Shown here in pieces: positions 3,669 to 42,095 of a stretch of 64,000 nucleotides of DNA. The notes beneath the pieces were generated by a model that saw nothing but the letters and a program-made list of their open reading frames with translations, was not told the DNA's origin and did not search any database. Numbering within the stretch: position 1 is the first letter of the stretch; each line of letters starts with the position of its first letter. The stretch comes from Terriglobia bacterium (lineage in GTDB: Bacteria; Acidobacteriota; Terriglobia; Bryobacterales; Bryobacteraceae), in assembly GCA_020073265.1 (NCBI GenBank), contig JAIQFN010000021.1, positions 1-64,000 on the forward strand, given 5' to 3'. Both the position numbers and the translations under genes were made by a program.

Positions 3669-3716
3669 CGGACAGACTACCGCTCCGGTTCCCCTCGGGC
3701 GCCGAATCGGCGAGAC

Positions 3717-4076: not shown

Positions 4077-4132
4077 CAACGAATCCGAACCGGTTTGCTC
4101 ACTACCGGCGAAACGATCCGGAACATCAGTGG

Positions 4133-4138
4133 TACACT
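4133..4138 (+). promoter_or_regulatory. -10 box 6 nt before the MerR-TPR gene
   Basis: TACACT is followed by 6 nt (TTCACC) and the GTG at 4145. There is no Shine-Dalgarno and no clear -35. The divergent cytochrome promoter lies about 60 bp away, so a DNA-binding MerR-type protein could control both. Confidence 0.5.
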
Positions 4139-4144
4139 TTCACC

Positions 4145-5065: not shown

Positions 5066-5070
5066 TTGTG

Positions 5071-5140
5071 GCGGCCAATCCTGGCCGCTGCTAACTTTTG
5101 TGCGGGCCGGCTGAAGCCGGCTGCAGCCACGATTGGCTGC
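5071..5140. repeat. Triple hairpin between convergent genes
   Basis: Three perfect inverted repeats follow each other: GCGGCCA/TGGCCGC at 5071-5088 (loop ATCC), GCCGGC/GCCGGC at 5106-5121 (loop TGAA) and GCAGCCA/TGGCTGC at 5123-5140 (loop CGAT). The first and third have related stems. The element fills the 80-bp gap between the MerR-TPR stop (5065) and the ypdA stop (5146). It may end transcription from both sides, although there is no U-run, or it may be a REP-like mobile repeat. Confidence 0.7.
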
Positions 5141-5145
5141 CCCAC

Positions 5146-6132: not shown

Positions 6133-6134
6133 CG

Positions 6135-8723: not shown

Positions 8724-8803
8724 GTATTTCTATTGTGACAGGTTGGCGGCGGCCAGGGCCGGGATTGGCGTCGCATTGGAGAACCAAGTACCCTAAAAGT
8801 AGG

Positions 8804-11001
<2,198 letters not shown>

Positions 11002-11005
<4 letters not shown>

Positions 11006-11361
11006 TCGAAACACAAGCCGAGCCGGAACACATCGCGATTTCGAAATCGAAAGGCATCCAGATCGACTGGAAGGACGGCCATCACAGCAGCTACGCGCTG
11101 GCGTATCTGCGCGACCGGTGTCCCTGCGCTACGTGCACCGGCGCGCACGGCACCGAGCCGCAGAAGAGCAATTATTCGGCTCCGCAGAACAGTCCCTTCC
11201 AGATGTTCACGCCCACGCTAAAGATGCTCAACGTGGAAGCGGTGGGGCACTACGCCGTTCGCATCGAGTGGAGCGACGGGCACAACACCGGGATTTATTC
11301 TTTCGATCACCTGCGCAAAATCTGCCCCTGCGAAGAGTGCAAGCAAGCGGCCGGGTCTTAA
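11002..11361 (+). CDS. DUF971 (GBBH-like N-terminal domain) protein
   Basis: 119 aa. The repeated pattern IDWKDGHHSSYALAYLRDRCPCATC and IEWSDGHNTGIYSFDHLRKICPCEEC matches the gamma-butyrobetaine-hydroxylase-like N-terminal (DUF971) fold, with two CPCxxC clusters that probably bind metal. Stand-alone members are often linked to Fe-S cluster handling; the exact role is not known. It overlaps the rel stop by 4 nt (ATGA), so translation is coupled to rel. The last 4 bp overlap the 3' end of the convergent methyltransferase-like gene. Confidence 0.85.
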
Positions 11362-11951
11362 CTTCGGAAGCGCGGCAGAAACCGGCCGGCGTGAGCGGCC
11401 CACACCTGGTACGCGTCTCCGAATCGGGCCGCCATCACAGCGTCTTCTTTGCTCACGCGCGAGATCATCACCGAAGTCAAGCCGCCCAGAAAGACCGCGC
11501 CGATGAACCAGTTCGCCGAGATCAGGAAGAACGCCAGCCCTACGCCGTAGAACGCCGTGTACATCGGATGCCGGACCCAGCGGTAGGGTCCCGACGTTAC
11601 CAGCGTGTGCTGCTCGCGCAGATGCAGCGTGCCGGAGAAATTCCGGCCGAGTTCATGATGAACTCGCCACAGCAAGATCACGGCCCCCGCGCCCAGCACC
11701 GCTCCGCTCCATCGCAGCCACGGCCACAACGGAACCGACGCCCAGGACATCCAATCGGGCTTCACCAAGTACAGAACGATCAAGCCCAACCCGCTGATTC
11801 CGGCTGTGGCGCGAAGCGCTATGTTGAGCGGGCTTTCGAACTGCTTCACCGGACCCGCGTGGCGCGATTGCGCATGATAATACATCCGCACCACGAACAA
11901 GCTGGCGATCACGGCGCCGAGCAAAGCGCGGAAGATCGCCTGGCCTTGCAT
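11358..11951 (-). CDS. Isoprenylcysteine carboxyl methyltransferase-like membrane protein
   Basis: 197 aa with four to five hydrophobic segments. The C-terminal half carries the ICMT/PEMT signature: LVTSGPYRWVRHPMY, an acidic segment (SKEDAVMAARFGDAYQVW) and a terminal FLP. Bacterial members are SAM-dependent membrane methyltransferases of unknown substrate. The start is 5 bp from the upstream tolC-type stop, with ATAGGTGAG ahead as a weak ribosome site, so it is the last gene of the three-gene TolC operon. Confidence 0.85.
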   Translation of the reverse strand: MQGQAIFRALLGAVIASLFVVRMYYHAQSRHAGPVKQFESPLNIALRATAGISGLGLIVLYLVKPDWMSWASVPLWPWLRWSGAVLGAGAVILLWRVHHELGRNFSGTLHLREQHTLVTSGPYRWVRHPMYTAFYGVGLAFFLISANWFIGAVFLGGLTSVMISRVSKEDAVMAARFGDAYQVWAAHAGRFLPRFRS

Positions 11952-13849: not shown

Positions 13850-13862
13850 CTTGATGCTCCGC

Positions 13863-15764
13863 TCACTTGTTCTCGCTGGGCAACGGATCCGGCAGAGCGG
13901 ACCGCCGCGCGACGCGTCCGGATACCGCCTCGTCCAGCGAGATTCTGTTCGACTCCAAAGTCTGGCCCACGGCTTGATCGAATGCGACCTTCGAGTGCGT
14001 ATAGTTCGCCATGGCCTGGATCTCCGCGCTCTGGGCGCTGGCCAGATCGCGCTGGGCCTGCACCACCTGCGAAATGGTCGACTCGCCGAACTTGAACCGG
14101 TTTTGTTCGGCCTCCAGCGTCTGCTGTGCAAGCTGTCGCGTGGCCACCGCCGTCTCATAGCGCGCCCGCGCCTGCTGCAAGCCGATCACGGCATTCTTCA
14201 CATCCACGCGAATCTGGCTGAGGACCTTCTGGAGCTGCAGCTCGCCCTGCCGCAGGCTGAGCTGGTCGGCCACGTAGTCGCCTTGCGCGGCCCGGTTGCG
14301 GAACGGGATGTTCAGCGAAAACCCGGCCGAGTAGTTGGGAAAATTGCGTCGAAAAACCTGCCCTAGCAGATTGCCGTACCCGCCCACGATGAACTGCGAA
14401 GGAACCTGGCTGGGGTTCAAAGAGTTCGGGTCGCCCGTCAGGGCGTTATTGGTGAACTCGACAAACGCCTGCAGCGTCGGCAGCAGCGCGTTCTTCGTGC
14501 CCGCCAGATTCATCCGCAGGCTCTCGGTGCTGATCTTGGTCTGCTCCAGTTCCGGCCGCGTGTCGAGCGCCTGCTGGATCAGATCCGGCGTGGGCTTCAG
14601 TTCTTCGGACGGCGGCACCACGATATGATCCAACGGCACTACGTGCACGTCGTCCAGCGATGCCGAGGCGACGCCGTTCCTGCTCAAGGCGTTCTTCAGA
14701 ACCGTTTCCTGCTGCGCGACGTTGGTCTGCGCGATGAGCAGCGCTTCCTTCGTCGAAGAAACTTCCGCCGCGGCCCGCGTCACTTCGATGGACGCCAGCG
14801 TGCCCAGCCGCACCTGCTGCTGGTTGTCATCCAGAAGTTTCTGCGCCGTCGCCACCGCTTGCTCCTTGATGCGGACATCATCGGCGAAGCTCACCAGGTC
14901 CCAATAAAGATTCAGTACCGCCGAAACCGTCGTGATCACCTGCCGCTTCAACTGCAGATCCGTGACCTTCATGTTGTTCTTCTGGACTCTGATGTTGCGG
15001 TTGTTGACCGAGACGCCGAAGCCCTGCATCAGGTTCTGCGTCACAAACAGATCCAGGAATCCGTTGGTGAACGGATTCAGGACAAAGGCCGGGCTGTTGA
15101 CGTGGTTGTAGCTGCTCGAAAAGAAGAGCTGCGCGCTGGTTCCGGTGATGAACGACTGAGCGTAGCCGAGCTGGAATTGCCGGCTGTCGTTCAACTGAAA
15201 CGGAATCTGCGCCAAAATCGTGTTGCTCAACGGCGTGGTGGCGTGCTGGAAATTGGCGAAGGCAAACAGCGTCGGATCCAGACCGGGCGGCGCCGTGCCG
15301 AGCTGAATGGTGATGCCGCCGCCCGATCCCACGCCCGATCCGCTCTCCGGCAAACCCACCGCGTTCACGCTGACGCCGGCCAGGCTGACGCTGGTCGGAC
15401 CGGGGCTGATGGGTTGACCGATATTGCGCAGCGCGCCGCCGCCTTCAGTGCGCAGCAGGACTTCCCGCGCCAGCGCCGGCGCGTAGCGCTGCACCGCGAT
15501 GTCCACGTTGTTCTCCAGCGTCAGCGCAATCACGTCCTGCACGTTCAGATAAAGATTGCCCGCGCGCACCAGCGTCTCCAGCCGCGGCGAATTGCCCAGG
15601 TTGGCCGGAGGCACAATGCGCCGCTCCAGATGGAATGGCTTCAGCACCGGCCCAACGTAGCGCACCGGCTTGGGCGTCTCCACGTACTCATCCGGCGCTT
15701 GGGCGAACGCACAACCGGCTAGGCTCACGAGCAAAACGATCCAATGTCTTCGAAGATTCATCAT
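13863..15764 (-). CDS. TolC-family outer-membrane protein with N-terminal extension (copy 1)
   Basis: 633 aa, first gene of the operon. A lipoprotein-like or signal sequence (HWIVLLVSLAGCAFAQA) is followed by an extension of about 200 residues with a domain beginning LYLNVQDVIALTLENNVD, then the helical OEP repeats (VIGLQQARARYETAVATRQLAQ). It forms, or resembles, an outer-membrane channel. Start at the double ATG 15764/15761; AGGA lies 10 nt upstream. The frame is open further upstream, but those residues do not look coding. The 13-bp gap to copy 2 and their shared motifs indicate tandem duplication followed by divergence. Confidence 0.85.
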   Translation of the reverse strand: MMNLRRHWIVLLVSLAGCAFAQAPDEYVETPKPVRYVGPVLKPFHLERRIVPPANLGNSPRLETLVRAGNLYLNVQDVIALTLENNVDIAVQRYAPALAREVLLRTEGGGALRNIGQPISPGPTSVSLAGVSVNAVGLPESGSGVGSGGGITIQLGTAPPGLDPTLFAFANFQHATTPLSNTILAQIPFQLNDSRQFQLGYAQSFITGTSAQLFFSSSYNHVNSPAFVLNPFTNGFLDLFVTQNLMQGFGVSVNNRNIRVQKNNMKVTDLQLKRQVITTVSAVLNLYWDLVSFADDVRIKEQAVATAQKLLDDNQQQVRLGTLASIEVTRAAAEVSSTKEALLIAQTNVAQQETVLKNALSRNGVASASLDDVHVVPLDHIVVPPSEELKPTPDLIQQALDTRPELEQTKISTESLRMNLAGTKNALLPTLQAFVEFTNNALTGDPNSLNPSQVPSQFIVGGYGNLLGQVFRRNFPNYSAGFSLNIPFRNRAAQGDYVADQLSLRQGELQLQKVLSQIRVDVKNAVIGLQQARARYETAVATRQLAQQTLEAEQNRFKFGESTISQVVQAQRDLASAQSAEIQAMANYTHSKVAFDQAVGQTLESNRISLDEAVSGRVARRSALPDPLPSENK

Positions 15765-23980: not shown

Positions 23981-24694
23981 ATGAAGCTGCACTTACATAC
24001 TGTTCCTGTATTCCTGGCCCTGATCGCACTGGTTTCCGCCCCGGCCGCGCCGTCTGGCTCCGAGAGCCTAAAGGCCCTGCTGGCCCGCATGGACAAAGCC
24101 GCCGGCGAATTCAAAGCCATGACGGCGCAATTCACCTATGTCACCCATACCGAGGTTCTCAACGAGGACAACACCGAGACCGGCACCACCATCATGAAAA
24201 AAGTACAGTCCGGCGAGGTGCAAGGCATCGTTGACTTCGTGAGCCCGGACAAGCACACGCTCACCTTCGAGAAACGTCGCGTCAAAATCTACTACCCCAA
24301 GATCCAATCCTTGGAGGTTTATGATCTGGACAAGCACGGCGAGCACGTGGACAAGTTCCTGATGGTCGGTTTCGGCACTTCCGGCGCTGAACTTGCAAGA
24401 GACTACGACATGAGCGTGGTGGCAACCGAAACGATGAAGGATCAGCCGGAGTTGCGGGCCATCCAGCTTCGATTGGTCCCCAAGTCCGGCGAGGCGCGGC
24501 AATACGTCAAGAGCATGGACCTCTGGATTCCCGAGCAGGGCGATCCGTATCCAGTGCGCGAGAAGATCCTGCTGCCATCCGGCGACTACCGGATCGTGAC
24601 CTACGCCGGCAAGAAAATCAATCCCCCTCTGCAACCGGACGCGCTGCAACTGAAATTGCCGCCCGGGGTTAAGACTGTGTATCCGGACAAATGA
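23981..24694 (+). CDS. LolA-like outer-membrane lipoprotein-sorting protein
   Basis: 237 aa. Signal peptide (HTVPVFLALIALVSAPAA), then the LolA/LolB half-barrel pattern: LLARMDKAAGEFKAMTAQFTYV at the start, VDFVSPDKHTLTFEKRRVKIYYPK in the middle, and LRLVPKSGEARQYVKSMDLWI toward the end. It probably carries lipids or lipoproteins across the periplasm. Several LolA-like paralogues usually exist in such genomes, so this need not be the housekeeping LolA. Its stop overlaps the next start (ATGA). Confidence 0.82.
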   Translation: MKLHLHTVPVFLALIALVSAPAAPSGSESLKALLARMDKAAGEFKAMTAQFTYVTHTEVLNEDNTETGTTIMKKVQSGEVQGIVDFVSPDKHTLTFEKRRVKIYYPKIQSLEVYDLDKHGEHVDKFLMVGFGTSGAELARDYDMSVVATETMKDQPELRAIQLRLVPKSGEARQYVKSMDLWIPEQGDPYPVREKILLPSGDYRIVTYAGKKINPPLQPDALQLKLPPGVKTVYPDK

Positions 24695-25813: not shown

Positions 25814-28800
25814 TCAGAAGCTCGCTCGGATCGCGAGCTGAATCTGTCGCGAAGTGGTGGTGGTCTGCGTGATCTGCCCGGCCGAAGCGACGGGTTGGCC
25901 AGTGCTCCCGAATAACTTCAGGCCACTAGGGATCTGAAAATTCGGGTGATTGGCGACGTTGAACATCTCCACGCGAAGATTGACTTGACGCTGCTCGCGC
26001 GCCCACAAGGTCCGGTGGACGGCGAGATCCAGATCCACCAGCCCCGGGCCGGTCAAGGTGTTGCGTCCCAGGTTGCCATACGTGCCGCTCGCTGGAATCG
26101 CAAACAGGTTCGGATTAAACCATTGCGCCGGGTCGCCCAGAATCAGGGGCGCTCCCGGAATCGGCACAAAGTCGGGCCGCTGCCCCAGAAAGATCGCGGT
26201 GTTGTCGCGCAGACCGGCGCGGTCGAATCCGATGATCGGATTGAACGGCGTCCCGGTTTGAGCCTGTAAGATCCCGTGCAATTCCCAGCCGCGCAGAAAG
26301 CCGCGGGGTTGCCAGGACCAGTCCGCGGCGAACACCTGCCGGATGTCGAAATTGGACGGCCCGCGATTGCTGCGGAAGTTGAGGGGATTCGGCACGTAGT
26401 CGCCATTCAAATAATCGTTGAGAATCGAGTTGGAGGATTCGTCGAGCACCTTGCCCCAGGCGTATTTTGCCTGCATGCGAAACCCGCCGGTGAGCCTCCG
26501 CTCGGCGTGCAACTGAAGTTGATTCGACCAGGAGGGGAACTGGGTCAGCCGCATTCCGATGCGTCCGAAATTGGGGTTCAACAAAGGCGCCGTCGGCGAA
26601 AAGTAAAGCTGTCCGCCCGGAAGAATGCTGGGCACCGGAATGTTGACGTCCCCGGCATACCCCGGCAGATGGACTCCATGAGACTCCGCGTAGCCAACCC
26701 GAACCATGGTTGCGCCCCATTGATGTTCGATCGCGGCTTGAATCTGCGTGACGTAAGGCTGGCTCTCGTAGTACTGCATGCCCTCGATCTGGAGCGGCCC
26801 GCCGTCGGCCCCGGCGATCGAGGCGAGGTTGGGAAACGGCGGCTTGGACGGCTGCACGCGAGCGTAGAAGGGCGGCATGCGATCTCCCGAATACGTCAGG
26901 TCGTCGGTGCTCAGCAGATCGTAGAAGATACCGGCGCCGGCGCGGAACACGGTGCGGCCATCGCCGAGCACATCCCAGGCCAGCGCGAGACGGGGGCCGA
27001 AGTTGGTTTTCGAAGGATTTCGAAACAGCGGGCCGCCCACGGTAACGGCCGGGTCGCGCAATGGATCCGGCAATGAGGCCACTTTTCCGTTCACCTCGGT
27101 GGGCGTTGAGTATGGCTCGTAGCGCAGGCCCGCGGTGATCTCCAGCCGTCGCGTCACGTGAAACTCGTCCTGCACGAACGCAAAGAACAGGTTCTGGCGC
27201 CATCCTCGCACCGTGGTGCTGCCGGGAATCTGGAGGGCTCCCGAGCTGGGGACTCCTTTCAAGAACGTAGCCAGGCTGGTGAATTGGTAGTCACCGAAGA
27301 GGTCCATGTCGGAATCCTGATTGAGCTGCACGCGGTCGAAACCCGCGCCGGCTTTCAAGCTGTGAGCGCCGCTGACGTGGCTGACATCGTAGTTCAACTG
27401 GTAGTCGTTAGTTACGTAATGCGTTGGCCGCTGACGCTGCGTAATTCCGCCGAGATCGGTGAGTCCGGTAACTTGAATGGCTCCCATGGGCTCACCGGGA
27501 AGAAAGGCCACACCCGCCGGCACCTGGCCGGTCTGGTTGGCCGAGTTCAGATTGTCAATCCGGCTGAATCCGGCATGCAGGTTGTGCAGTGTCGCTGGGG
27601 ACTCGACAAATTGTGCTTCCGTCTGCGCGAAGTGATACTGCGACTTGCTGTTGAACAGCCATAGCAGGTACGGATCGGGCGTCGAGGTCCCGGCACGGTC
27701 GAAAGCATAGCGAGTGGCGAAGCGCAGCCGTTCCGAGCGCAGGTAATCCACTTTTCCCACCGCGTAGTCTTCTTGTGAAGGCGTGTTGAGCTGAGCGATG
27801 TACTGGCCGGTTCCGTCCGAAAATAAGGCTCCGTTGGGAAGAGGATAGAGCTGCAGGAAAGGTGTGACGGCGGAAGAAACGGCCACGTTTCCGCCGGGCA
27901 ATTGGCCCGACCGCGCGGCCGCGCCGAGCGTGGTCGCGATCGAGGTTTGTCCGGACGTCGAACGGACTCCTTCGTAGTCCCCCAGGAAGAACCAGCGCTG
28001 CCGCACGATCGGGCCGCCGAGCAGCCCGCCGAACTGATTCCGTTTCAGCGGCGGAATGGGCGAAGACGGCGAATCGACGTAATTCTTCGCATCCATCGCG
28101 GAGTTCCGGAAAAAGTCGAAAATGCTGCCGTGCATCTCATTGGTGCCGGACTTCGACACGGCCGTGAACATGGCGCCCGCCGCTCTGCCGTATTCGGCCA
28201 GAAACGGGCTGGCTACCAGGCGCAGCTCCGCGACGGCTTCCACGCCGAGGGTCTGGCCCGTCGCGCTGGACGGCGCCGAGCCGGTAGTGTCATTTACGTA
28301 GATGCCGTCCACGCGATAACTGTTCTCGGTCGGCCGCGCGCCATTGACCGACATATGCAGCGCGGAGCCGTAATTGAGGCTGCGCGTCGAAGCGTATGAC
28401 AAGGTCGCGCCCGTTTCCAGCGCGGACAGATCGAACAGATCCCGGCCATGCAGCGGAAGGTTCTCCAGTCGCATCTGGCCTACCGAAGAACCCCAGTCGG
28501 CGGCACTCGGACTTACCAGCGAGGCGGTTGCATCCACCGCCACTCCCTGGCTGGTTTCGCCCAGTTGCAGTTGGAAATCAATGCGCAGACTTCGCCCTGC
28601 GTCCAGAATCACGCCCCGGCGTGTCACCGTCCGGAAGCCGGCATACTCCGCCTGGATGTCATAAACGCCCGGAGCCAGCCCTTGCGCGAAGTAGTAACCC
28701 GCGCCGCCGCTGGCGATGCGCCTCTCGGCGCCGGTGGTGGTTTCGAGCAGGCGGATGGACGCGCCGCGGATCGCCGCATCCGATGGGTCCGTGACCAACC

Positions 28801-28870
28801 CTTCGATGCCGCCGGTGGTCTGCGCGTGCGCGATACTCAGGAAGAAGATGGCTGCAGCGGTCACTCTCAT
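25814..28870 (-). CDS. Oar-type TonB-dependent receptor with carboxypeptidase-regulatory-like domain
   Basis: 1018 aa. Signal peptide (AAAIFFLSIAHAQ), an N-terminal carboxypeptidase-regulatory-like beta-sandwich (IEGLVTDPSDAAIRGASIRL, residues of about 20-105), a plug (NLPLHGRDLFDLSALETGA; SVNGARPTENSYRVDGIYVN) and a 22-strand-type barrel ending NLRVEMFNVANHPNFQIP and LAIRASF. No clear TonB box is seen. Such receptors import large substrates and are abundant in acidobacteria. The start overlaps the stop of the lipoprotein gene upstream (ATGA), so it is the last gene of a three-gene unit. Confidence 0.92.
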   Translation of the reverse strand: MRVTAAAIFFLSIAHAQTTGGIEGLVTDPSDAAIRGASIRLLETTTGAERRIASGGAGYYFAQGLAPGVYDIQAEYAGFRTVTRRGVILDAGRSLRIDFQLQLGETSQGVAVDATASLVSPSAADWGSSVGQMRLENLPLHGRDLFDLSALETGATLSYASTRSLNYGSALHMSVNGARPTENSYRVDGIYVNDTTGSAPSSATGQTLGVEAVAELRLVASPFLAEYGRAAGAMFTAVSKSGTNEMHGSIFDFFRNSAMDAKNYVDSPSSPIPPLKRNQFGGLLGGPIVRQRWFFLGDYEGVRSTSGQTSIATTLGAAARSGQLPGGNVAVSSAVTPFLQLYPLPNGALFSDGTGQYIAQLNTPSQEDYAVGKVDYLRSERLRFATRYAFDRAGTSTPDPYLLWLFNSKSQYHFAQTEAQFVESPATLHNLHAGFSRIDNLNSANQTGQVPAGVAFLPGEPMGAIQVTGLTDLGGITQRQRPTHYVTNDYQLNYDVSHVSGAHSLKAGAGFDRVQLNQDSDMDLFGDYQFTSLATFLKGVPSSGALQIPGSTTVRGWRQNLFFAFVQDEFHVTRRLEITAGLRYEPYSTPTEVNGKVASLPDPLRDPAVTVGGPLFRNPSKTNFGPRLALAWDVLGDGRTVFRAGAGIFYDLLSTDDLTYSGDRMPPFYARVQPSKPPFPNLASIAGADGGPLQIEGMQYYESQPYVTQIQAAIEHQWGATMVRVGYAESHGVHLPGYAGDVNIPVPSILPGGQLYFSPTAPLLNPNFGRIGMRLTQFPSWSNQLQLHAERRLTGGFRMQAKYAWGKVLDESSNSILNDYLNGDYVPNPLNFRSNRGPSNFDIRQVFAADWSWQPRGFLRGWELHGILQAQTGTPFNPIIGFDRAGLRDNTAIFLGQRPDFVPIPGAPLILGDPAQWFNPNLFAIPASGTYGNLGRNTLTGPGLVDLDLAVHRTLWAREQRQVNLRVEMFNVANHPNFQIPSGLKLFGSTGQPVASAGQITQTTTTSRQIQLAIRASF

Positions 28871-29859
28871 GCGTTACTCCAGGACTTCATTGCAAGCTCC
28901 CAATAGCGGGCGTCGATCAGCGGGTCGGCGGAGGTCGTGGCCGGAGAGTAGCCGCGAGCGATCGCCCATTGGACGATTCGAGCCACGCTCTTGCGATCGA
29001 CCTCGCCGTTTTGCGTAAAGGTGCGGCGGCATCCGTCGATCACATTCGCGCCCAGGTTGCTGGCGGCCGCGTAGTCCTTGAGAAACTGCGGCGTGGCGCC
29101 CGCCAGAAAATCCCGGCCAGCCCGCAGGTAAGCGGCCAGCAGAGCGGCGCCGGCCTTCGGATCACTTTCGATCAGACCTTTGCCAAACCAAATGTAGGAG
29201 AACTGGAGACCGGTCAGCGCTCTCAAGCCCGCGTCCTCCCGCACTATCTCGGGGTGAGAACTGAAATTGTACGGCACGTGTCCGGCATTCATCGCCGCGT
29301 CCACGCCGCCGGAAATAAGAGCCGCGACCATCTCGGGGTGGCCGAGATTCGTGCGCGGGGTTTTGCTGGGATCCAGGCCCACGGCGCTCAACTCGCTATC
29401 GAGGAAGAATTCCCCGAGCCCCGCGCGACCGACGGTGCTGAAGCGCTTTCCCTCCCACAGCCGGATGTCAGAGGTCCCCTTGGGAAAGGACTTCCGGCGC
29501 ACGTAGATGGCGCCCGCATCGCCGCAGGCCGGGGACACAACCTCCCGGCCGAGGACGATTCGAAGCGTGGCTCCCCCGCTTGCCAGGTTGAACAGCGCCG
29601 GCGAGGCGAAGGTGCACGCGCCGTCCACTTGTCCCGCTGCCAGCAGGGATGCCATGATCTGCGCGGTGGCGGCCACTTGCGGACGAACGTCGAAACCAGC
29701 GTCGCGAAAATATCCTTTCTCGAGCGCCAGGTAGAAGACGCTCATGTTGGGGAAGGGGTGCGCTCCAAACCGGATTTCGCGCAGCGGGCCGCTCTTCTTT
29801 CTTGCGCAGGATGAAAGGACGGCGGCGGCCGCCGGCAACAGCAGGTCCCTACGACGCAT
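28867..29859 (-). CDS. NMT1/THI5-like substrate-binding lipoprotein
   Basis: 330 aa. Twin-Arg-like start (MRRRDLLLP), then a lipobox-like LSSCARK, so it is probably a lipoprotein. The body follows the NMT1/SsuA/ThiY type-II binding-protein pattern: NMSVFYLALEKGYFRDAGFDV, AGQVDGACTFASPALFNLA, GEFFLDSELSAVGLDPSKT and GGVDAAMNAGHVPY. Family members bind sulfonates, thiamine precursors or similar small ligands. No permease or ATPase is nearby; instead it is sandwiched by overlap between an adenylating enzyme (11-bp overlap) and a TonB receptor. Confidence 0.85.
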   Translation of the reverse strand: MRRRDLLLPAAAAVLSSCARKKSGPLREIRFGAHPFPNMSVFYLALEKGYFRDAGFDVRPQVAATAQIMASLLAAGQVDGACTFASPALFNLASGGATLRIVLGREVVSPACGDAGAIYVRRKSFPKGTSDIRLWEGKRFSTVGRAGLGEFFLDSELSAVGLDPSKTPRTNLGHPEMVAALISGGVDAAMNAGHVPYNFSSHPEIVREDAGLRALTGLQFSYIWFGKGLIESDPKAGAALLAAYLRAGRDFLAGATPQFLKDYAAASNLGANVIDGCRRTFTQNGEVDRKSVARIVQWAIARGYSPATTSADPLIDARYWELAMKSWSNA

Positions 29860-31462
29860 CCACTGCTCCGGCAGCGGCGGTCAGTGGCTTACGCAGGCCC
29901 AACAGAACCAGTGGAAGGATCTTGCCGGTCCGGCCCACGATGGGCGGCTCCGCGAGGATTTCCAGTGAGCCGGCGTGTCGCCAAATTCGGTTCGCCAAGG
30001 TTCCCCCATACAGTTTGCTAATCTCGCCCAGAAAGCAATCGCGAATCTGGTCGGCGCGAACCTCGCCGATGCGCGGATTTACCCGCAGCGCGATGCGCGT
30101 GCCGCTTCCGGCGTCCTGTTCGACCAACTGATAATCCACCGGGCTGCCGCCGAAGCGGGCCGGAAGTACGCCCTCCAGAATCGCGACAATGCCGCTGGCG
30201 GGAAGTGTCATGCCGTGACTGGTGAGCTTGGTGTAGCTATACATGTCCGAAATCACGCTGGTGAACCCGAGCTTCGAAAACACGCAATCGCACTGCGAAG
30301 GCGACATCACTCCATGGTCGCCGATTTCCAGGTTGATGACAAAGCAGCGTGAGAACGGAAGGAGGCTGGTGAGCAACATCGAGTTGACCTCGATTTCCGA
30401 ATCAGCCGCTTGTGAGCGGCGAGTGACGATGGCCACGGCGTCGCGAAAATGGTGGACCGTGTTGATGCCGCCGTACCTGGAGCAGCTCAAGCCAATGGTG
30501 CCGAATTCGACTGTTTTATACGTGGCGAACACCTCGGCGCCGGCGTTGTGAATCACGGCGGCTTTGGCCGGGGTCAAAGCCTCGCCCGAGGTAACGAACC
30601 GGGCGCCCGAAATATCCAGCCCTCGCTCCAGCGCGGCGGCCGCGACCCGCACGCAGGAACTGGCCACGCCGGTCACGAAGCTGAGCCGGCCGCGCTGTCG
30701 CGCTTTGGCGATCGCCTCGGCGACCGGGCCGAAATCGTTTTGAGGAAGAAATTGAAGCGGGGGCATGCGGACCCCCATGGCTCGCGCTTCCAGCCAAAGC
30801 AGCCGCGTGACCGCCCGGTAGTGGCCCGAATCCTTGAAGGTCCCGGCGACCGCGTACCAACGCTCCGCAGGCAGCCCCATGTTGTGCCCGAAGAACGCGC
30901 GCGAAAACCCGTAGACCGAGGGTAGCGTGGGGGCCAGAATGAACCAGGACCGGTCCCACGCACCGAGGTCGCTGAACGCGAGAGATTCGTAGCAGCTCTG
31001 GTAAGCGCGGAGCTGCGGGTTGGTGCCGATCGAAGTCCCCCGGTTCAGCCCGCCGGATGAGCTGGTTTCCAGGCGGTTGGATACGAGCGGGTTGCGGAAA
31101 CTTCTGGTCGTCGCACTGATATGCCGGCCGTTGCGAACAATCGGCTGAGTACCTTTAAATTCGTCGTGAGACAAAAACACACCCGACTGGCGCAACGTTT
31201 CAAGAGCTCTATCGAGACCGCAACTCCGCACCAGACTCTCGACATCGGCGAAGCCGCAGCGGGCTTCCGCGAACATCTGGGCATATGGATGGCTTGGATC
31301 GCGGAACACGACTTTCGCGAGCAAGTCGAGAAAGCGGCGTTCGCGGTTCTGGAGCTGATCGGAAAGCACCGCCGCGGGGTCCGGGTGGGACGGCTCGCGA
31401 ATGGTCTCTCGCAATCCCCAGGCCATTCGCGCATAGTACGAACAGGCCTCAAACCAAAGCAT
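29849..31462 (-). CDS. PaaK/LuxE-like adenylate-forming enzyme (ANL superfamily)
   Basis: 537 aa. The phosphate-binding loop SSSGGLNRGTS (near residue 135), an A5-like ATYKTVEFGTIG, an acidic NLEIGDHG and a C-terminal VGRTGKILPL with the catalytic-type Lys suggest an ANL enzyme of the PaaK/CapK/LuxE branch. It would activate a carboxylate as an acyl-AMP. About 125 N-terminal residues precede the P-loop with no family match. The ATG at 31462 is preferred to a TTG at 31477 because of the promoter spacing. First gene of the unit with the binding lipoprotein and the TonB receptor. Substrate unknown. Confidence 0.7.
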   Translation of the reverse strand: MLWFEACSYYARMAWGLRETIREPSHPDPAAVLSDQLQNRERRFLDLLAKVVFRDPSHPYAQMFAEARCGFADVESLVRSCGLDRALETLRQSGVFLSHDEFKGTQPIVRNGRHISATTRSFRNPLVSNRLETSSSGGLNRGTSIGTNPQLRAYQSCYESLAFSDLGAWDRSWFILAPTLPSVYGFSRAFFGHNMGLPAERWYAVAGTFKDSGHYRAVTRLLWLEARAMGVRMPPLQFLPQNDFGPVAEAIAKARQRGRLSFVTGVASSCVRVAAAALERGLDISGARFVTSGEALTPAKAAVIHNAGAEVFATYKTVEFGTIGLSCSRYGGINTVHHFRDAVAIVTRRSQAADSEIEVNSMLLTSLLPFSRCFVINLEIGDHGVMSPSQCDCVFSKLGFTSVISDMYSYTKLTSHGMTLPASGIVAILEGVLPARFGGSPVDYQLVEQDAGSGTRIALRVNPRIGEVRADQIRDCFLGEISKLYGGTLANRIWRHAGSLEILAEPPIVGRTGKILPLVLLGLRKPLTAAAGAVDAS

Positions 31463-31468
31463 CGCTCT

Positions 31469-31497
31469 ATTGTACAAGGGCCTGCTGCGTTAGTGAA
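31469..31497 (-). promoter_or_regulatory. Promoter with -10 box 6 nt before the ANL gene
   Basis: Minus strand: TTCACT (31492-31497), 17-bp spacer, TACAAT (31469-31474), 6 nt (AGAGCG), ATG at 31462. It is the most complete promoter of the N6 class in the window. No Shine-Dalgarno. Confidence 0.6.
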
Positions 31498-31508: not shown

Positions 31509-34016
31509 TCAGGCTGGAGACGCCGCGGGCTTGGAAAAGATCGCGTCCACAACCGCTTTTCCTTTGCGCATGATGAGTTCGGCCAGGTTCAGCGCGAGGG
31601 CCAGCGCCAGCAGTCCCGGCCAGAGGCGCAGCGTGGATGCCTCCGAGCGTCTTCCGGACTCGAAGACCTGGCTGGGCGCGGGATTGAATCGCCCGCCGGT
31701 AAATTCGGAAATGGAGCGCAGCAGAAACTTGTTCGAGCCGTAGTCGAGCAACTCCTGCTCCTGCCGGTAGTAACCAACTTCGGGAAACGCGCGCGATTCC
31801 TCAAGCGGCCGGATGCGGAACAGACCCTGTTGCTGTCCGATGTGAATCCGTCCGCGGTAGGACTTGTCCGCGAGTTCGGTGATGGGCATGGGATGCTGGA
31901 ATCCGCCGGGACCGAGAGCAAAAATGTTGGGCGCCTTCGGCGGCTGGGCGACATCGCGGCCAAGTTGATAGTTCACCACCAGATCGCCGCTGGCGCTATC
32001 GTACTCCACTTTCGCTTCGCCCACCTCGGCGTGTGGAAACAGGTCGCGAAAGATGTTGGTCCACAGCCGGTCGAAGCCCTTCCAGGTAACCCAGTCGGCC
32101 GCCCAGCGGCTCTTGGCGTCGGAAGTAAACACCACCGCGCGGCCCAATCCGTATTGCCAGCGCACCAGCAACGGGTCTTTTTGGTCGACTTTAAGGATGG
32201 TGTCGGAGGTCGGCTTGGCGATGAACTTCACGTAGCCCTTGAGCGCCGGAGCGGAATCGATGCCGACGCCATCCAGAATCTCGGCGTTCTTGCCGACGAT
32301 GGGGCGCAGCGTTTTCTCGACCGCGGTGGAGCCGGTATGTTCCATCACGTCCTTCAACAAAATCTGTTCGAGACCGGCCGGCTCGTTGAGAAAATACGAT
32401 TTGCCGTTGGCGACCGTGGCCACCTTTTCCAGATAAGCGCGGTTGACGTCCTGGCCGAGTCCGACGGTGGAGATGGTGACGTGCCGCGCGGCGGCTTCCT
32501 TGGAAAGATCCAGGCTATCGCCTTCCTCCGAGATTCCGTCGGTCAGCAACACGATGTGCTTGAAGGTGGCGCGCGAGGGAAGCACGCGGCGGTAGGCCTC
32601 CGTTAAAGCCGGGGCGATCTGCGTGCCGCCGTCCGGGACGATTCCCGAGATGAGCCGTTTGATCAAGGCTTTGTCTTCGGCTCGGCGCATCGGGACGGCC
32701 CACTGGAAGGAGTTGTCAAAGATGAGCACGCCGACCTGGTCGACTGGGCGCAGATTGTCAACCACGCCGATGGCGGCCAGCCGGGCCAGCTCGATCTTGC
32801 GGCCTTCCATGGAGGACGATTTGTCGATAATCAGCACCACCGCGGTGCCTTCCGGAGAGCGCGGTGGCGCGAGCTTGGCGGGCATGGTGCGATCCAGGGC
32901 GTCTTCGGCGGTCTTGGTGTCGTTATAGATGTTGCGCTCGCCGGCGATGACCAGCAGGCCGCCGCCTTCTTTCACGAACTTCTCGATTTCATCTTTCCGC
33001 GACGCTGGAAGACCCTCGAGATCCAGGTTGTTCAAAACCAGGAGCTGGTAACTCGCGAGATCCCCGTGCGCGGGATCGTTGCTTCGCTCGACATCGAATT
33101 GAGCGGCTGTCAGGGTCTGCATCAGGTTGGTCTCGGTGCCTTCGGGGTCCTGAGAAAGGTACAGGACCTTGGGCCTGCGCAACGTCATGGCGCGGTCGAA
33201 GCGGATTTCGCCGAGGCTGCCGGCGCGGATCGCACCCGCCAGATTCAACACGCCGGCTTCGGTGAGGCTGGCGTGAACGCGAACCTGGTTGCTGCCCTTC
33301 TCGAGCGGCACCGGATTGGATCCGAGCGGCTTGCCTTCCGCGCTGATTTCCACGCTGGCCGAGACGTTGGCGGGCGAGGAGACGTTCAAGTCGATGGGGA
33401 ATTTCTCGCCGGTGAAGGCCACGGTCGGAAGACTCACTGACTCAAGATGCAGGCCGGGCTGCGGCTTGCCTTCGAGCGGGATGGTATCGATGGGGATACC
33501 GAGATTCTGCGCCTGCCAGGTGGCGCGGGTGATGCTGCCGGCGTTTTCCTTGCCGTCGGAAATCAGCACGAGTCGCGGAACCAGTCCGGAGGGCAGCGAC
33601 GTGATGGCTTCGCGAACGGCGGCTTCGAGATCCGTGCCGCGGCCCTCTTCGCCGGCGGTGTATTTGAAATGCCAGCCGCGCTGTTGCTCTTCGGGCGCAA
33701 GATTGCGGACGGAACGCGCAAAGGGAAGCACCCGGATCCAATGGCGGCCGCGCGAGTTGTCCAGCGCCGTCGCGAGCTCGGAGGCGCGGGCCAGGTCCTG
33801 CGGCGCGATGCTGGCGGAGGTGTCCACCAGGACCGCGACGGCCATCTTGGTTTCGGGGATGGTCAGCTTGGGCTCGGCGAGAGCCAGCACAATGGCGATG
33901 ATGGTAAGCGTTTTCAGGAGCAGCGCGATGGTTCGGCGGGTGCGCCGCCATTCGAACAGCATCCACGCGAGCGGCAGGACGAGCAGCGCCAGGACCCAGG
34001 CTCGTTCGAAGGTCAT
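31509..34016 (-). CDS. Membrane VWA-domain protein of a MoxR/Bat-type operon
   Basis: 835 aa. Two N-terminal membrane helices (WVLALLVLPLAWMLFEW; LLLKTLTIIAIVLALAE), a first degenerate VWA-like region (AVAVLVDTSASIAP), a glutamine-amidotransferase-like segment (LLVIAGERNIYND), then a full VWA domain with the MIDAS motif DKSSSMEG near residue 395 and LLTDGISEEGD. One C-terminal helix (LWPGLLALALALNLAELIM). Such proteins work with MoxR ATPases in envelope maturation or stress. Last gene of the moxR operon; a double-hairpin repeat separates it from the BatA-like gene. Confidence 0.85.
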   Translation of the reverse strand: MTFERAWVLALLVLPLAWMLFEWRRTRRTIALLLKTLTIIAIVLALAEPKLTIPETKMAVAVLVDTSASIAPQDLARASELATALDNSRGRHWIRVLPFARSVRNLAPEEQQRGWHFKYTAGEEGRGTDLEAAVREAITSLPSGLVPRLVLISDGKENAGSITRATWQAQNLGIPIDTIPLEGKPQPGLHLESVSLPTVAFTGEKFPIDLNVSSPANVSASVEISAEGKPLGSNPVPLEKGSNQVRVHASLTEAGVLNLAGAIRAGSLGEIRFDRAMTLRRPKVLYLSQDPEGTETNLMQTLTAAQFDVERSNDPAHGDLASYQLLVLNNLDLEGLPASRKDEIEKFVKEGGGLLVIAGERNIYNDTKTAEDALDRTMPAKLAPPRSPEGTAVVLIIDKSSSMEGRKIELARLAAIGVVDNLRPVDQVGVLIFDNSFQWAVPMRRAEDKALIKRLISGIVPDGGTQIAPALTEAYRRVLPSRATFKHIVLLTDGISEEGDSLDLSKEAAARHVTISTVGLGQDVNRAYLEKVATVANGKSYFLNEPAGLEQILLKDVMEHTGSTAVEKTLRPIVGKNAEILDGVGIDSAPALKGYVKFIAKPTSDTILKVDQKDPLLVRWQYGLGRAVVFTSDAKSRWAADWVTWKGFDRLWTNIFRDLFPHAEVGEAKVEYDSASGDLVVNYQLGRDVAQPPKAPNIFALGPGGFQHPMPITELADKSYRGRIHIGQQQGLFRIRPLEESRAFPEVGYYRQEQELLDYGSNKFLLRSISEFTGGRFNPAPSQVFESGRRSEASTLRLWPGLLALALALNLAELIMRKGKAVVDAIFSKPAASPA

Positions 34017-34039
34017 GACTGGGGTTCTCCCGAGAACTG

Positions 34040-34085
34040 GCGTTCACACGAGCGTGAACGCGGCACGCAGGAGTGCGTGCGCCAC
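34040..34085 (-). repeat. 46-bp double-hairpin repeat, copy A
   Basis: Oriented on the minus strand. Read that way, a GCACGCA/TGCGTGC hairpin (34063-34080) is followed by a GCGTTCAC/GTGAACGC hairpin (34040-34061). It lies in the 76-bp gap between two operon genes, so it is transcribed with them. It differs from copy D by a few bases, one of them in a loop. Confidence 0.8.
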
Positions 34086-34092
34086 GTCGTCG

Positions 34093-35988
34093 TCATGAGG
34101 CTTTCCTCCAGGGCAGACGTGGCATGACTTGCGCCGCTGCCACCAGGCCCTTGCGCATGCGTCCGAACAGAATCCAATCGGCCACCAGGCCCAGGCCGCC
34201 GAGCAGCGCCAGCCATTGCCAGATATCTTTGGAAGCCGGTTCGTAGGGCGCGCGGCCAGGCAAGCCGTGCCTCACGTTGGCCGGCTTCCAGACCACGTCG
34301 CCCGGCTGCGGCAACGTCAGCGAATACACCAGCTCGCGGTCGCCGGTGAGAACTCGCACGATTCCCGAAGCGCCGGTGAAGAAACGCAGCGTCCGCCCTT
34401 CCAAGGTGAACGGCAGCGCCAGGCCGTCCTCGGTCTGGACGTGAATGGTGGAAGGATCGGCTTCCGATTCCAGGTCCACTTGCACGGTGCCGACTGTGCC
34501 GGCCGTCAGTTCCCAGGTGCGGAACGTGTCGGGCGCCATCCAGCGGATCATGTTGGCGAACATCAGCGGCGTGGTGAGCTCGTACTTCATGCCGGCCCGC
34601 ACCGGATGAAATCCCAACACTACGATTTTCGGTTTGGCTTGACGCGCGACGATGAGCGGGCCTGCGTCGGATTCGGCCACCACGGTATCCCCGGGCCCAG
34701 GGCGGAACAGTTCCGCGTTCGCAATTTCGGAGTCTTTCGCGCGCAGGCCGGCGCCCAGAGGATGATCCAGCCGCCAGCTTTTCAGCTTCACTTGCTTTCC
34801 GGAGCTCGCGACCGGGACGGGCGACTTATCGGGCGGCGGCTCCACCCAAATGGTTTCGGCCTGGGGCGGAGCCGATGGAGCGAAGCGATCCAGCACGACG
34901 ATGCCGCTCTGGATCTTGGGATCGTAGTTTGATACCGGCTGGAAGGTGGCTTGAACGCCCGGGATGGAATTGAGCACCGGACGCAGCAACTCGGGTTCCG
35001 CGGAATAAACCGTGACGGGAACCAGCCTTCGCGCGGGCAACTCGAGAATGGCGCGATGGTCCTGCGCGAAGGCATCTTGCATCAGCAGGCGCGCTTCGAG
35101 CCATCCAGCGGCGCGCGTTTTGAACCGGAAAGCGGCGTTCTCTTCGGCGCCGGGTTTTAATTCGAAGCGGTGCGTGCCCACCGGTCCGCCGCCAAACTGC
35201 ACTCCCAGCGGGGCCGAGCGAGACCGCGAGCCGTAGTTCTTCACGGCCACGAAGACTTCCCAGGTTTCCGGATCTTCCGGCGACCTGCGTACGCTGACTT
35301 TGCGCAAGCCGACGTGTTCCGCGGGGCTGGGAACGGCGATCACGCGCAGGTTCGCCGGCGCGTTCACCTGCGAGGCTTCGTCGCTGGAGATGCGCGCTGC
35401 GCCAACCAGCACGATCTCGCCGGCGCGCTGCGCATGGATCTTCTGAGCTTGCTGCGCGAATTGGAGCGCCTGCTGAATGTTGAGCGGTCCGGCGCCGGGT
35501 TGGGTCTGGTCGATGGCCTGTTGGATTTTCAACCGGTCGGATTCGAAAACCGTCGCCGGGGTAGCGAGCACGTCGGCGCGCAGCACCATCACGCGGTCGC
35601 TGGAGGGCAGCATGCGGAGGTAATTTCTGGCGGCGGCGCGCGCCTGGTCGATCATCCTGGCTTGGCCGGAGCGGCCGCCCATCCAGGCCGAGGTATCGAG
35701 AATCAGCACGTGATCGCGGGAGGAACGCGCCGGCGAGCCGAACCGAAGCTGCGCGATAGCGAGCAGCAGCAACAGCATGCTGATCAACTGCAACACCAGC
35801 GACCAGGGCTGTTGCAACTTCCGGCGATGCTTCAGCACCGGAGGCTTCTCGGCCAGCTCGAAGAAGCGCAAAGTCGAGACGGTGTGCTTCTTGCGCATGC
35901 GGTCCAGCAGGTAGAGCGCCACCACGACTCCGGAGAGCGATCCCAGGATCGCGAGAAATTCCGGCAGGCTGAGGTTTAGGAAAAACAT
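34093..35988 (-). CDS. BatA-domain membrane protein with degenerate VWA domain
   Basis: 631 aa. It begins with the BatA N-terminal signature (FFLNLSLPEFLAILGSLSGVVVALYLLDRMRKK) with two membrane helices; the second is VLQLISMLLLLLAIAQL. The VWA-like domain starts ILDTSAWMGG, where the MIDAS D-x-S-x-S is altered, so metal binding is doubtful. The C-terminus has another helix (ALLGGLGLVADWILFG). Probably a periplasmic scaffold of the MoxR-linked complex. Starts 7 bp after the DUF58 stop. The largest part of the middle (350-550) has no assignment. Confidence 0.8.
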   Translation of the reverse strand: MFFLNLSLPEFLAILGSLSGVVVALYLLDRMRKKHTVSTLRFFELAEKPPVLKHRRKLQQPWSLVLQLISMLLLLLAIAQLRFGSPARSSRDHVLILDTSAWMGGRSGQARMIDQARAAARNYLRMLPSSDRVMVLRADVLATPATVFESDRLKIQQAIDQTQPGAGPLNIQQALQFAQQAQKIHAQRAGEIVLVGAARISSDEASQVNAPANLRVIAVPSPAEHVGLRKVSVRRSPEDPETWEVFVAVKNYGSRSRSAPLGVQFGGGPVGTHRFELKPGAEENAAFRFKTRAAGWLEARLLMQDAFAQDHRAILELPARRLVPVTVYSAEPELLRPVLNSIPGVQATFQPVSNYDPKIQSGIVVLDRFAPSAPPQAETIWVEPPPDKSPVPVASSGKQVKLKSWRLDHPLGAGLRAKDSEIANAELFRPGPGDTVVAESDAGPLIVARQAKPKIVVLGFHPVRAGMKYELTTPLMFANMIRWMAPDTFRTWELTAGTVGTVQVDLESEADPSTIHVQTEDGLALPFTLEGRTLRFFTGASGIVRVLTGDRELVYSLTLPQPGDVVWKPANVRHGLPGRAPYEPASKDIWQWLALLGGLGLVADWILFGRMRKGLVAAAQVMPRLPWRKAS

Positions 35989-35995
35989 GACGCTG

Positions 35996-36876
35996 TTACT
36001 GGATGCCGCCGGTCCGCGCTATCGGGCCGAAGACCGCCTCCTCGATGGTTGTGGCCGTGGAGAGTCCCACGTAGCGCCCGCTGTTCCGCAGTCCGATGCG
36101 TTGGATGCTGCGGGAGAACTCATCGAAGGCCTGCGTGTAGTGCCGGCGCGCGGCGTCGTCGAATCCGATTTCGAGCATGCCGCCGGTCTCGGCGTCGGTC
36201 AGATCGAGTTGGCCTTCCCAGGGCGGCTCGCGATCCTCCTGGTCCCAGACGTGGAGCAGCATCAGCTCGTGTCCGAAGTCGGCCAGGAACTGGAGCGGCC
36301 GCTCGCAATCGTGTTCGTCGAGGAAATCGGAAATGATGATCAGCAGGCCGCGCTGCGGATACTTGGTGATGAACTGGCGGGCCACTTCGAAGTAGTTGGT
36401 GCGGCCGGATGGTTTCAGCCCTTCCAGGAAGTTGACAGCGGGGATGAAGCGATGGCGGCCGCCGCCGCACACGAACGAATCGCCCAGATTCTCGGCGAAC
36501 GGCTGGATGGAGATGGTGTCCAGCCGCACCAGGCCGATGTAGCACAGCGCGGCGGCGAGCCTGCGGGCGTAGTCAAATTTCGACACGCCGCCGGTGGCCA
36601 TGGAACCGCTGCAGTCGAGCAGGACCCGGACCGGAATGCGGGGCTCCACCTGGAACATTTTTAGAAACAGCTTTTCGAGGCGCAGGTAGGCACGCCAGTT
36701 GACGGCGCGCAGGTCGTCGCCATGGTGGAACTGGCGATGGTCCAGGAATTCCTGGCCGGGTCCGGCGAAGTGGGAGATGTTGTGGCCGCCCACCAGGCCG
36801 GGGAAGGATTTCTGCCACTGGATCGCGAGCCGCTCGAGCTTCTCGAGGAAAGCGCTATCGATCAGTGGTGCGGGTT

Positions 36877-36880
<4 letters not shown>
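35996..36880 (-). CDS. DUF58-domain protein
   Basis: 294 aa. The central motif HHGDDLRAVNWRAYLR and the following VRVLLDCSGSMATGG are characteristic of DUF58, a VWA-related domain always found beside MoxR ATPases. Here the D-x-S-G-S-M MIDAS-like motif is complete. The protein is soluble with no membrane segment. It overlaps the moxR stop by 4 nt (ATGA), the usual coupling of this pair, and precedes the BatA-like gene by 7 bp. Confidence 0.9.
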
Positions 36881-40847: not shown

Positions 40848-42095
40848 TCAGGTACTGCCGGCGCCGCTCTGCTCTGAGCCGGACGGCGCCGCGAGTTTAC
40901 GATAGCGAACTCGAGTGTTCAGGTTCAGAACTCCCGCCACATCCTTGGTGTCGACGACCTGAAAATCGAGCACGTCGTCCAGCCAGTCCTGGCTGAGGCC
41001 GTTCGAATACTGAGTTGCGACGGTCAGCGTATATTCCTGGCGGCTCAGCAGACAATCCAACTCCAACTCGATTTGCAAAGTGTCGCCCGGCGCGAATTGC
41101 CCTAGCGGGACGCCCTCGAGGCGCGTATTGGTTCCAAACACATCCATGCCAATGCGATTTCGAATCAGCAGGCCAACTACCGGCTCTATAACAGCCTGAT
41201 GAAATACGGCCTGGACGCGAATGACGATCGATTCGCCAGGGCGGAAGGCGCGCGTAGCTTCACCGGCGCGATTCAACATGCGGACATCCACGATCCGGCT
41301 GGCGCCATCGCCGTGCCGAAAGCTGCTGGTCGCGGCGGCGCCTTCGATTGCGCCGTCCGTTTTGTTGGCGCGCTCCTGGTCCAAGGCAAAACCGACGTAG
41401 CGGTTTACGGCGTCCTTTGGTGATCCCTCCATCACGACCTTTCCGGCCAGCATGAAGGCGGCTCGGTCCGCCAATCGCTTCACCAGTCCCAGGTCGTGCG
41501 AGACCAGCAGGACGGTTGTCTTTCGCTGGCGCAACTCTTCAAATTTCTGGATGCACCGGCTGGCGAATATCGCGTCACCGACGGCCAATGCTTCATCGAC
41601 GATCAGGATCTCGGGATCGACGTGGATGGCAGTGGAGAACGCCAGGCGAACGTACATTCCCGTGGAGTACTCTTTCACCGGCCGATCGATGAATCTACCG
41701 ATTTCCGCGAAGGACTCGATTTTCGGAAAGGCTCGCTCCATTTCATTTCGGGACAGGCCCATGATCTCGCCGTTCAGATACACATTGTCGCGACCGCTGA
41801 ATTCGGGATTGAAGCCGGCGCCGAGTTCGAGGAGTGCTGCCACGCGTCCGCCCCGGAGTACGCGGCCAGTGGTTGGCTGCAGGATTCCGCAGATGATCTG
41901 AAGCAGTGTGCTCTTGCCCGAACCATTCGGCCCTATGATGGCGAAAACCTCGCCCTTTTCGACGCGAAAGTTCACGTTGCGCAAGGCATAGAACTCCGAA
42001 CTCCGCCGTTTCCGGTGGCCGAGGCCAGCGAGGATTCTATGGAATGGATGCTGGTAGAGGTGATAGACCTTGGAAACGTTCTGGACGGAGATCAC
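40848..42095 (-). CDS. Wzt-like polysaccharide export ABC ATPase
   Basis: 415 aa. ABC domain with Walker A GPNGSGKST, signature EYSTGMYVRLA, Walker B ILIVDEALAVGD and H-loop LVSHDLG, all of the O-antigen/teichoic-acid exporter type (GAGFNPEFSGRDNVYLNG is diagnostic). The C-terminal domain of about 170 residues is Wzt_C-like, which reads the capped end of a polysaccharide. No Wzm permease is encoded near it, so it must pair with one elsewhere or be a relic. The GTG at 42095 is the only suitable start; TACATT lies 11 nt ahead. Confidence 0.88.
   Translation of the reverse strand: MISVQNVSKVYHLYQHPFHRILAGLGHRKRRSSEFYALRNVNFRVEKGEVFAIIGPNGSGKSTLLQIICGILQPTTGRVLRGGRVAALLELGAGFNPEFSGRDNVYLNGEIMGLSRNEMERAFPKIESFAEIGRFIDRPVKEYSTGMYVRLAFSTAIHVDPEILIVDEALAVGDAIFASRCIQKFEELRQRKTTVLLVSHDLGLVKRLADRAAFMLAGKVVMEGSPKDAVNRYVGFALDQERANKTDGAIEGAAATSSFRHGDGASRIVDVRMLNRAGEATRAFRPGESIVIRVQAVFHQAVIEPVVGLLIRNRIGMDVFGTNTRLEGVPLGQFAPGDTLQIELELDCLLSRQEYTLTVATQYSNGLSQDWLDDVLDFQVVDTKDVAGVLNLNTRVRYRKLAAPSGSEQSGAGST

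Follow-up and report, generated by a model that had tools for sequence, protein, structure and literature searches.

A recurrent gene set of an Oar-type receptor, a PaaK-like enzyme and varied inner-membrane importers in Bryobacterales, with a shortened member in a Terriglobia bacterium

Introduction

This study addressed the question of whether three overlapping genes of very different kinds form one system, and how a substrate-binding lipoprotein comes to stand in such a unit with no inner-membrane importer beside it. The genes lie on the minus strand of a stretch of 64,000 nucleotides (hereafter the window) from a Terriglobia bacterium of the family Bryobacteraceae (contig JAIQFN010000021.1, positions 1 to 64,000, assembly GCA_020073265.1), and they encode an adenylate-forming ANL enzyme, an NMT1-type lipoprotein and an Oar-type outer-membrane receptor. 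Comparison with related loci demonstrated that the system is real and recurrent and that the window holds a truncated member of it. The original prediction, made from the sequence of the window, knew of no described system with this set, and our literature search, which covered mostly titles and abstracts and subscription journals thinly, likewise did not find it described. The unit consists of the following features:

29849..31477, minus strand: ANL, PaaK-like adenylate-forming enzyme, 542 amino acids from TTG or 537 from ATG at 31462
28867..29859, minus strand: NMT1/THI5-type substrate-binding lipoprotein, 330 amino acids, by Pfam NMT1 (E 3e-11) and model fold
25814..28870, minus strand: Oar-type outer-membrane receptor, 1018 amino acids, with CarboxypepD_reg, a weak Plug signal and OMP_b-brl_4, in the clade of ANL-linked Oars
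29849..29859, minus strand: ANL/lipoprotein overlap of 11 bp, of equal length in L054, L060 and L099
28867..28870, minus strand: lipoprotein/Oar overlap ATGA of 4 bp; a permease gene stands at this spot in relatives, e.g., L054, L060, L063 and L099

Results

The minus-strand open reading frames confirmed the layout first described, with an overlap of 11 bp followed by ATGA. We annotated 60 other ANL loci, mostly from Bryobacterales kin: 41 discovery loci, scored by tblastn with the system queries and with the window excluded, and 19 from a wider search of the order, which gave 20 stretches before L180 was dropped as a duplicate of L099. All five genes (ATPase, ANL, lipoprotein, permease and Oar) were present in varying order at 13 of the 60 loci, and a complete or partial ABC set of the ATPase/lipoprotein/permease type at 22. 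A scored importer of any kind stood beside the ANL at 41 loci and a linked Oar at 30. This recurrence bears out the proposal that the genes belong to a single system.

Ten of the 41 discovery loci hold all five genes (L052, L054, L056, L057, L058, L060, L063, L065, L069 and L099); L055 and L062 lack the ATPase only, and L066, L087 and L091 lack the Oar only, L087 and L091 being counted but left out of the ANL trees for internal stops or broken frames. In the wider set, five genes were found in 3 of 19 loci (L181, L183 and L185), ABC genes without Oar in L179 and L182, and in L177, which lies at the edge of a contig, just the ATPase and the lipoprotein. The permease and ATPase of L181 are convergent behind a window-like ANL–lipoprotein–Oar unit, and the permease of L183 lies beyond the Oar. 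The contiguous three-gene set, which the original prediction had asked to be sought in other genomes, occurs in L057, L058, L181 and L183. Of the proteins submitted to Pfam, each of 5 permeases matched BPD_transp_1 and each of 4 ATPases matched ABC_tran.

Trees from quick searches (SH-aLRT support, midpoint roots) place the window among these loci. In the ANL tree (60 rows), the ABC-type ANLs fall inside a group of 30 rows (support 100). The window belongs to this group, as do L053 and L059 of the DASS type, L061 of the NRAMP type and six importerless rows; within it, the window shares a smaller group (96) with L052, L054 and L183, all of which bear ABC genes. In the Oar tree (63 rows, with the L055 Oar left out because it is in pieces), 30 ANL-linked Oars, including that of the window, form one clade (97) with an ABC-type subgroup of 15 rows and an NRAMP-type subgroup of 11 rows (each 100); here the window stands with L052 and L183 (98). 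All 29 other tested Oars of the window genome, drawn from the best 30 loci of 70 match rows, fall outside this clade, and the own-genome Oar OWNL113 (contig C5) is the sister of the L072 Oar. Pairwise ANL and Oar identities across 12 loci correlate with r 0.70 (66 pairs, not independent). A chance neighbourhood was rejected, since the set recurs, the 11-bp overlap is kept in L054, L060 and L099, and the window finds the same kin in both the ANL and the Oar tree.

The cognate permease and ATPase of an NMT1-type ABC importer are present in relatives and absent from the window unit. Within window positions 20001-42000, the permease queries gave no match and the ATPase queries one distant match (73 bits, 41397-41987), so that the lipoprotein indeed stands without a permease or ATPase beside the unit, as had been noted. 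Because both trees nest the window among ABC-bearing loci, the permease and ATPase were, as judged from phylogeny, secondarily lost. The inner-membrane step had been thought either missing or supplied by a distant transporter; the first part is borne out as a secondary loss, and supply in trans is possible. A second ATPase–ANL copy does exist in the same genome at L067 (C63:116000-131167), at 13267-15166 of that locus, where the contig end cuts the locus after the ATPase and most of the ANL (about 380 residues); an ANL search of the own genome found no further piece of this copy.

The enzyme itself was not readily identified. Searched against Pfam with a threshold as loose as E 10, the window ANL stayed unmatched, which ruled out assigning it as a Pfam family member and made a family profile and a structural model necessary; a single-sequence phmmer search of the PDB gave three matches, at E 0.41 or worse, none of them an ANL protein. 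A profile of 39 family rows matches PaaK PDB chains (E 3.8e-10), and among the rows themselves there is one weak AMP-binding match and a few matches to PaaK-like NCBIfam models. The model (pLDDT 80.5) shows the two-domain ANL fold and aligns with PaaK1 (2y27) over 397 residues at 4.3 A (Z 24.1); near structures in the profile and model searches include NatL2, AjiA1 and ClxA. On this modelled fold, the protein is a PaaK-like member of the ANL superfamily despite the silence of Pfam, as the original prediction had it. Three sites of the enzyme need to be distinguished:

31034..31066, minus strand: P-loop-like stretch TSSSGGLNRGT, with Gly at residue 138 and Leu-Asn at 139-140
30506..30520, minus strand: YKTVE, aligned by hhalign with YGLSE of the PaaK-like protein L197
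29921..29923, minus strand: Lys514, candidate C-terminal catalytic Lys (K in 56 of 60 rows, gap in 3, L in 1)

The canonical ANL P-loop motif is (S/T)SG(S/T)xG. The P-loops of the family resemble it, and the window reads SSSGGLNRG, differing from the 58 other readable rows at residue 138; Leu139 and Asn140 are likewise peculiar to the window among the residues listed in the 60-row alignment. The other conserved ANL residues are kept. The alignment with the relative's protein L197 sets YKTVE, H337, D382 and CxC opposite counterparts, residue 319, the acidic end of YxxxE, is E in 55 and D in 5 of 60 rows, and D382 is kept in 59 rows with one gap. Lys514, at a motif that we take to be A10, lies outside the alignment with L197, so its catalytic role is that of a candidate. 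ATP binding had been named as a test of the proposal; the fold and most motif residues are present, but the P-loop deviates at residue 138. Adenylation of a carboxylate is the predicted reaction, and the P-loop change together with the loss of the ABC genes suggests a weakened or altered activity of the window copy.

The lipoprotein combines an NMT1 fold (model pLDDT 84.7; fold neighbours Thi5, ThiY, SsuA, CmpA, PqqT and a thiamin-binding protein) with a lipoprotein signal, the lipobox being assigned by eye:

29806..29859, minus strand: RR-containing signal peptide with lipobox-like Cys18 (M1, R3, R4, L7 and C18 the same in all 7 aligned rows)

Its fold neighbours leave the ligand unfixed, as binders of sulfonate, nitrate and bicarbonate also share the fold. 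The window Oar carries CarboxypepD_reg and OMP_b-brl_4 (E 4.3e-155). These two domains are above cut-off in 4 of 4 Oars, TonB_dep_Rec_b-barrel in that of L069 only, and Plug is below cut-off (E 0.073 in the window, E 0.00062 in L069); the window Oar had no match among PDB sequences at E 0.01. The window's genome contains TonB_C matches and dozens of Oar-type receptors (70 match rows), to which the window Oar is at most 32% identical over its full length and up to 38% over partial stretches, whereas its identity to full-length Oars from 10 ABC loci is 42.6-50.0%.

Other importers stand in the place of this ABC set. Beside the ANL we found a two-permease ABC importer at 2 of the 60 loci (L189 and L191, both with Oar), an NRAMP-like protein at 12 (10 with Oar), TctC/TctA at 2 with Oar (L187 and L188, in the order Oar–ANL–TctC–TctA by Pfam) and a DASS symporter at 3 (the discovery loci L053, L059 and L072). 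A third frame of L188, considered as TctB, had no Pfam match. The NRAMP-like gene occurs in 9 of 41 discovery loci, 7 with Oar and 2 without (L076 and L088), and in the wider loci L192-L194 as Oar–ANL–NRAMP (tblastn). Fitting the five importer labels to the ANL tree takes no fewer than 6 changes, where 4 would be the lowest number possible. In L061, an ABC-clade ANL is joined to an NRAMP-clade Oar, whose frame is broken, and to an NRAMP gene, which on its phylogeny reads as a natural importer swap.

The NRAMP-like protein of L061 matches Pfam Nramp (E 1.1e-38), and the NRAMP-like match to a 10ky chain has E 7.6e-17. A sequence alignment, in which a shift is possible, covered 9 of the 12 loci. 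All 9 aligned rows read GPxD instead of DPGN, with Gly where the metal-binding Asp would be expected, and at the position of the metal-site Met each of the 8 readable rows has Ser or Ala. One report calls this Asp universally conserved in SLC11 proteins (PMC8806188). As aligned, these importers thus appear to lack the metal ligands of NRAMP metal transporters, which lowered metal uptake as a candidate common theme.

Among 101 close relatives, 20 carry an ANL relative, and 16 of these belong to the window's own family; the counts are 11 of 297 for genomes across the phylum (the window genome included in this and the preceding count) and 34 of 257 for genomes of the order (profile, E 1e-30). The distribution is patchy. 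Eight named bearers are metagenome-assembled genomes, most of them Acidobacteria, Bryobacterales or Bryobacteraceae and one Acidimicrobiia. A first contig scan with the window ANL covered 21 stretches and showed no relative. Spread of the system on plasmids was rejected, the window ANL being unmatched in the plasmid collection.

Several loci show arrangements of their own. The permease and Oar of L052 form one frame of 1278 amino acids without an intervening stop (4086-7922, minus strand), which is a fusion or a sequence error. L054 has, next to its complete set, a further ANL copy that is fragmented (2257-3680, minus strand), and L068 a tandem pair of ANL genes between Oar and NRAMP (8359-11529). 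A third ANL copy of the window's own genome (L059, contig C47) lies beside a divergent DASS symporter, and same-genus L053 has a sister ANL with a like neighbour. A class I methyltransferase family lies near the ANL in L053, L054, L063, L064 and L069, directly behind the Oar in L063 and directly behind the ANL in L064.

Upstream of the window unit, a gap of 31 bp separates it from a same-strand VWA-domain gene, and the gap contains a promoter-like site:

31469..31497, minus strand: sigma-70-like promoter TTCACT-17-TACAAT, 9 of 12 consensus positions

It is the single 9/12 match in 500 bases scanned, where shuffles gave 0.1 expected. The one clear promoter of the original prediction is therefore present as a site, but as a weak consensus match. 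Its -10 box ends 6 bases ahead of the ATG at 31462; RNA would then possibly start near this ATG and give a leaderless message. Read-through or co-transcription from the VWA gene is also possible. The same-strand stretch directly upstream (31509-36880, minus) holds a DUF58 gene and a pair of VWA-domain genes, one of which has a BatA domain as well; the group resembles a Bat cluster. A LolA-like gene at 23981-24694 (plus strand) matches the flexirubin LolA2 model below cut-off.

Discussion

With moderate confidence, we propose that the Oar, the importer and the ANL enzyme import a carboxylate and then activate it with ATP, and that the window carries a shortened copy. We infer an inward direction and an acidic cargo as follows. 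The TonB-type Oar would serve the outer-membrane entry of a small, scarce carboxylate, and the lipoprotein would hand it to an inner-membrane importer, originally an SsuBC-like permease/ATPase in the window lineage. In the cytoplasm, the PaaK-like enzyme would adenylate the acid with ATP, probably passing it to coenzyme A or another acceptor, and this activation would trap the acid and so pull it inward. The Oar–ANL pair would be the constant core and the importer exchangeable. In the window, the lost step may be supplied in trans, or the copy may be failing.

Because such different importers serve one Oar–ANL pair, a common acidic cargo activated on entry is suggested. Carboxylates are the classical cargo of DASS and TTT importers and the compounds that PaaK-like enzymes activate. 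The uptake and activation of an aromatic or other acid had been proposed; through the DASS/TTT association an acid is the best reading, but the support stops at an acid in general. More tentatively, this might be a modular system of Acidobacteriota in which the cargo is set by the Oar and the PaaK-like enzyme, with ABC, NRAMP-like, TTT and perhaps DASS importers replacing one another as the inner gate; the NRAMP-like proteins would then be a new kind of organic-acid importer.

Several observations weigh against the import and activation of a carboxylate. A scored importer is wanting beside the ANL at 19 of the 60 loci (13 of the 41 discovery loci; in the wider set, L190 with Oar–ANL alone at a contig edge and the partnerless L178, L184, L186, L195 and L196, of which L178 and L184 are at contig edges), and only four of the 19 (L085, L178, L184 and L190) have a contig end some 110 bases or less from the ANL. 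Loci scored as importerless may hold other transporters, and two genes of L071 were uncounted: a CitMHS-type gene (4817-6625, plus strand) about 2 kb upstream of its ABC-clade ANL, and a convergent MFS_2 gene behind it (10445-11839, minus strand). An ANL subclade of 9 rows (support 97) has neither linked Oar nor scored importer, and the ANL family can therefore work otherwise. The DASS gene of L053 and L059 is divergent and no Oar was found there, and the Oar near L072 is on the opposite strand and outside the 30-row Oar clade. NRAMP members normally carry metals. No catabolic family was seen among the gene clusters occurring in at least 3 of 42 stretches. For the window itself, the 98%-complete assembly has no close permease, the matches being 28% identical on C7, where the gene sits with another NMT1 gene, and 24% and partial on C56; P-loop residue 138 is S in 54 rows, T in 4, a gap in 1 and G in the window alone.

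The last points also bear on whether the window copy is a decaying, functionless remnant of a system that is real elsewhere, which is compatible with the proposed system and has a substantial minority chance. The lost permease and ATPase and the unusual P-loop residues 138-140 fit such decay, as does the lowest mean lipoprotein identity to the others among 12 loci (0.338), but that difference is tiny, the next lowest being 0.342. Moreover, all three frames are open with tight overlaps, the mean ANL identity of 0.408 exceeds the 0.404 of L065, the Oar branch length is ordinary and the other conserved ANL residues are kept.

It is unlikely that the ANL instead makes a small secreted chelator or signal, as an amide or ester, whose loaded form the Oar and importer retrieve. 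NatL2, AjiA1 and ClxA, which are among the near ANL structures, serve metabolite making; a methyltransferase family lies near 5 of the 41 discovery loci, with an O-methyltransferase cluster in 3, a nonribosomal peptide synthetase gene is convergent beside the L086 ANL, and one importer type is NRAMP-like. However, no exporter appears among the recurring gene clusters (at least 3 of 42 stretches), all nine aligned NRAMP-like rows read Gly at the position of the metal Asp, and DASS and TTT fit free carboxylates better. Salvage of a cofactor or vitamin precursor, with the ANL processing a precursor acid, is very unlikely: the ligands of THI5-type lipoproteins are often precursors of cofactors, pyrimidine ones among them, and ThiY, Thi5, the thiamin-binding protein and PqqT are fold neighbours, but the fold also covers the sulfonate, nitrate and bicarbonate binders, the importers vary between loci with DASS and TTT included, and an Rfam scan of 14 loci found no riboswitch above gathering score (7 ABC loci had no match at all, and the sole match in 7 NRAMP loci was a group II intron distant from the genes).

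Oar-type receptors, of which this genome alone carries dozens, generally lack an assigned cargo. An Oar clade tied to one enzyme offers a direct handle on receptor cargo through the substrate of the enzyme. Unrelated importers that replace one another while the receptor and the enzyme stay the same would provide a natural experiment, of a rare kind, on what determines the cargo. NRAMP-fold proteins devoid of metal ligands would broaden the span of their transporter family.

Among known systems, vectorial acylation by FadL and FadD likewise combines outer-membrane entry with trapping of the acid by an ANL enzyme, but FadL is not known to be of the Oar type, no binding lipoprotein or dedicated importer is known to take part, and FadD is not known to belong to this PaaK-like branch. 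The substrate of another receptor, DdvT, is reportedly a carboxylic acid. As proposed for the window system, DdvT of Sphingobium SYK-6 belongs to a TonB-dependent receptor system devoted to a small compound, in its case one derived from lignin and aromatic, and in the part of the report available no pairing with an ANL enzyme was seen (PMC6874591). PaaK 2y27 and NatL2, AjiA1 and ClxA share the fold of the window ANL (Z 21-24), which differs from them in its identity of 12-15%, a length about 100 residues greater, Pfam silence and linkage to Oar and importers; with the PaaK-like L197 it has the YxxxE, H, D and CxC positions in alignment. The NRAMP-like importers share the family match with SLC11/NRAMP and NRMT proteins and differ in the replaced DPGN and Met. 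Finally, the ABC loci of the relatives share the NMT1 lipoprotein, BPD_transp_1 permease and ABC_tran ATPase of SsuABC, TauABC and ThiXYZ, but unlike those importers their genes are joined to an ANL and an Oar, and it is from this joined set that the window has lost its permease and ATPase, as the trees suggest.

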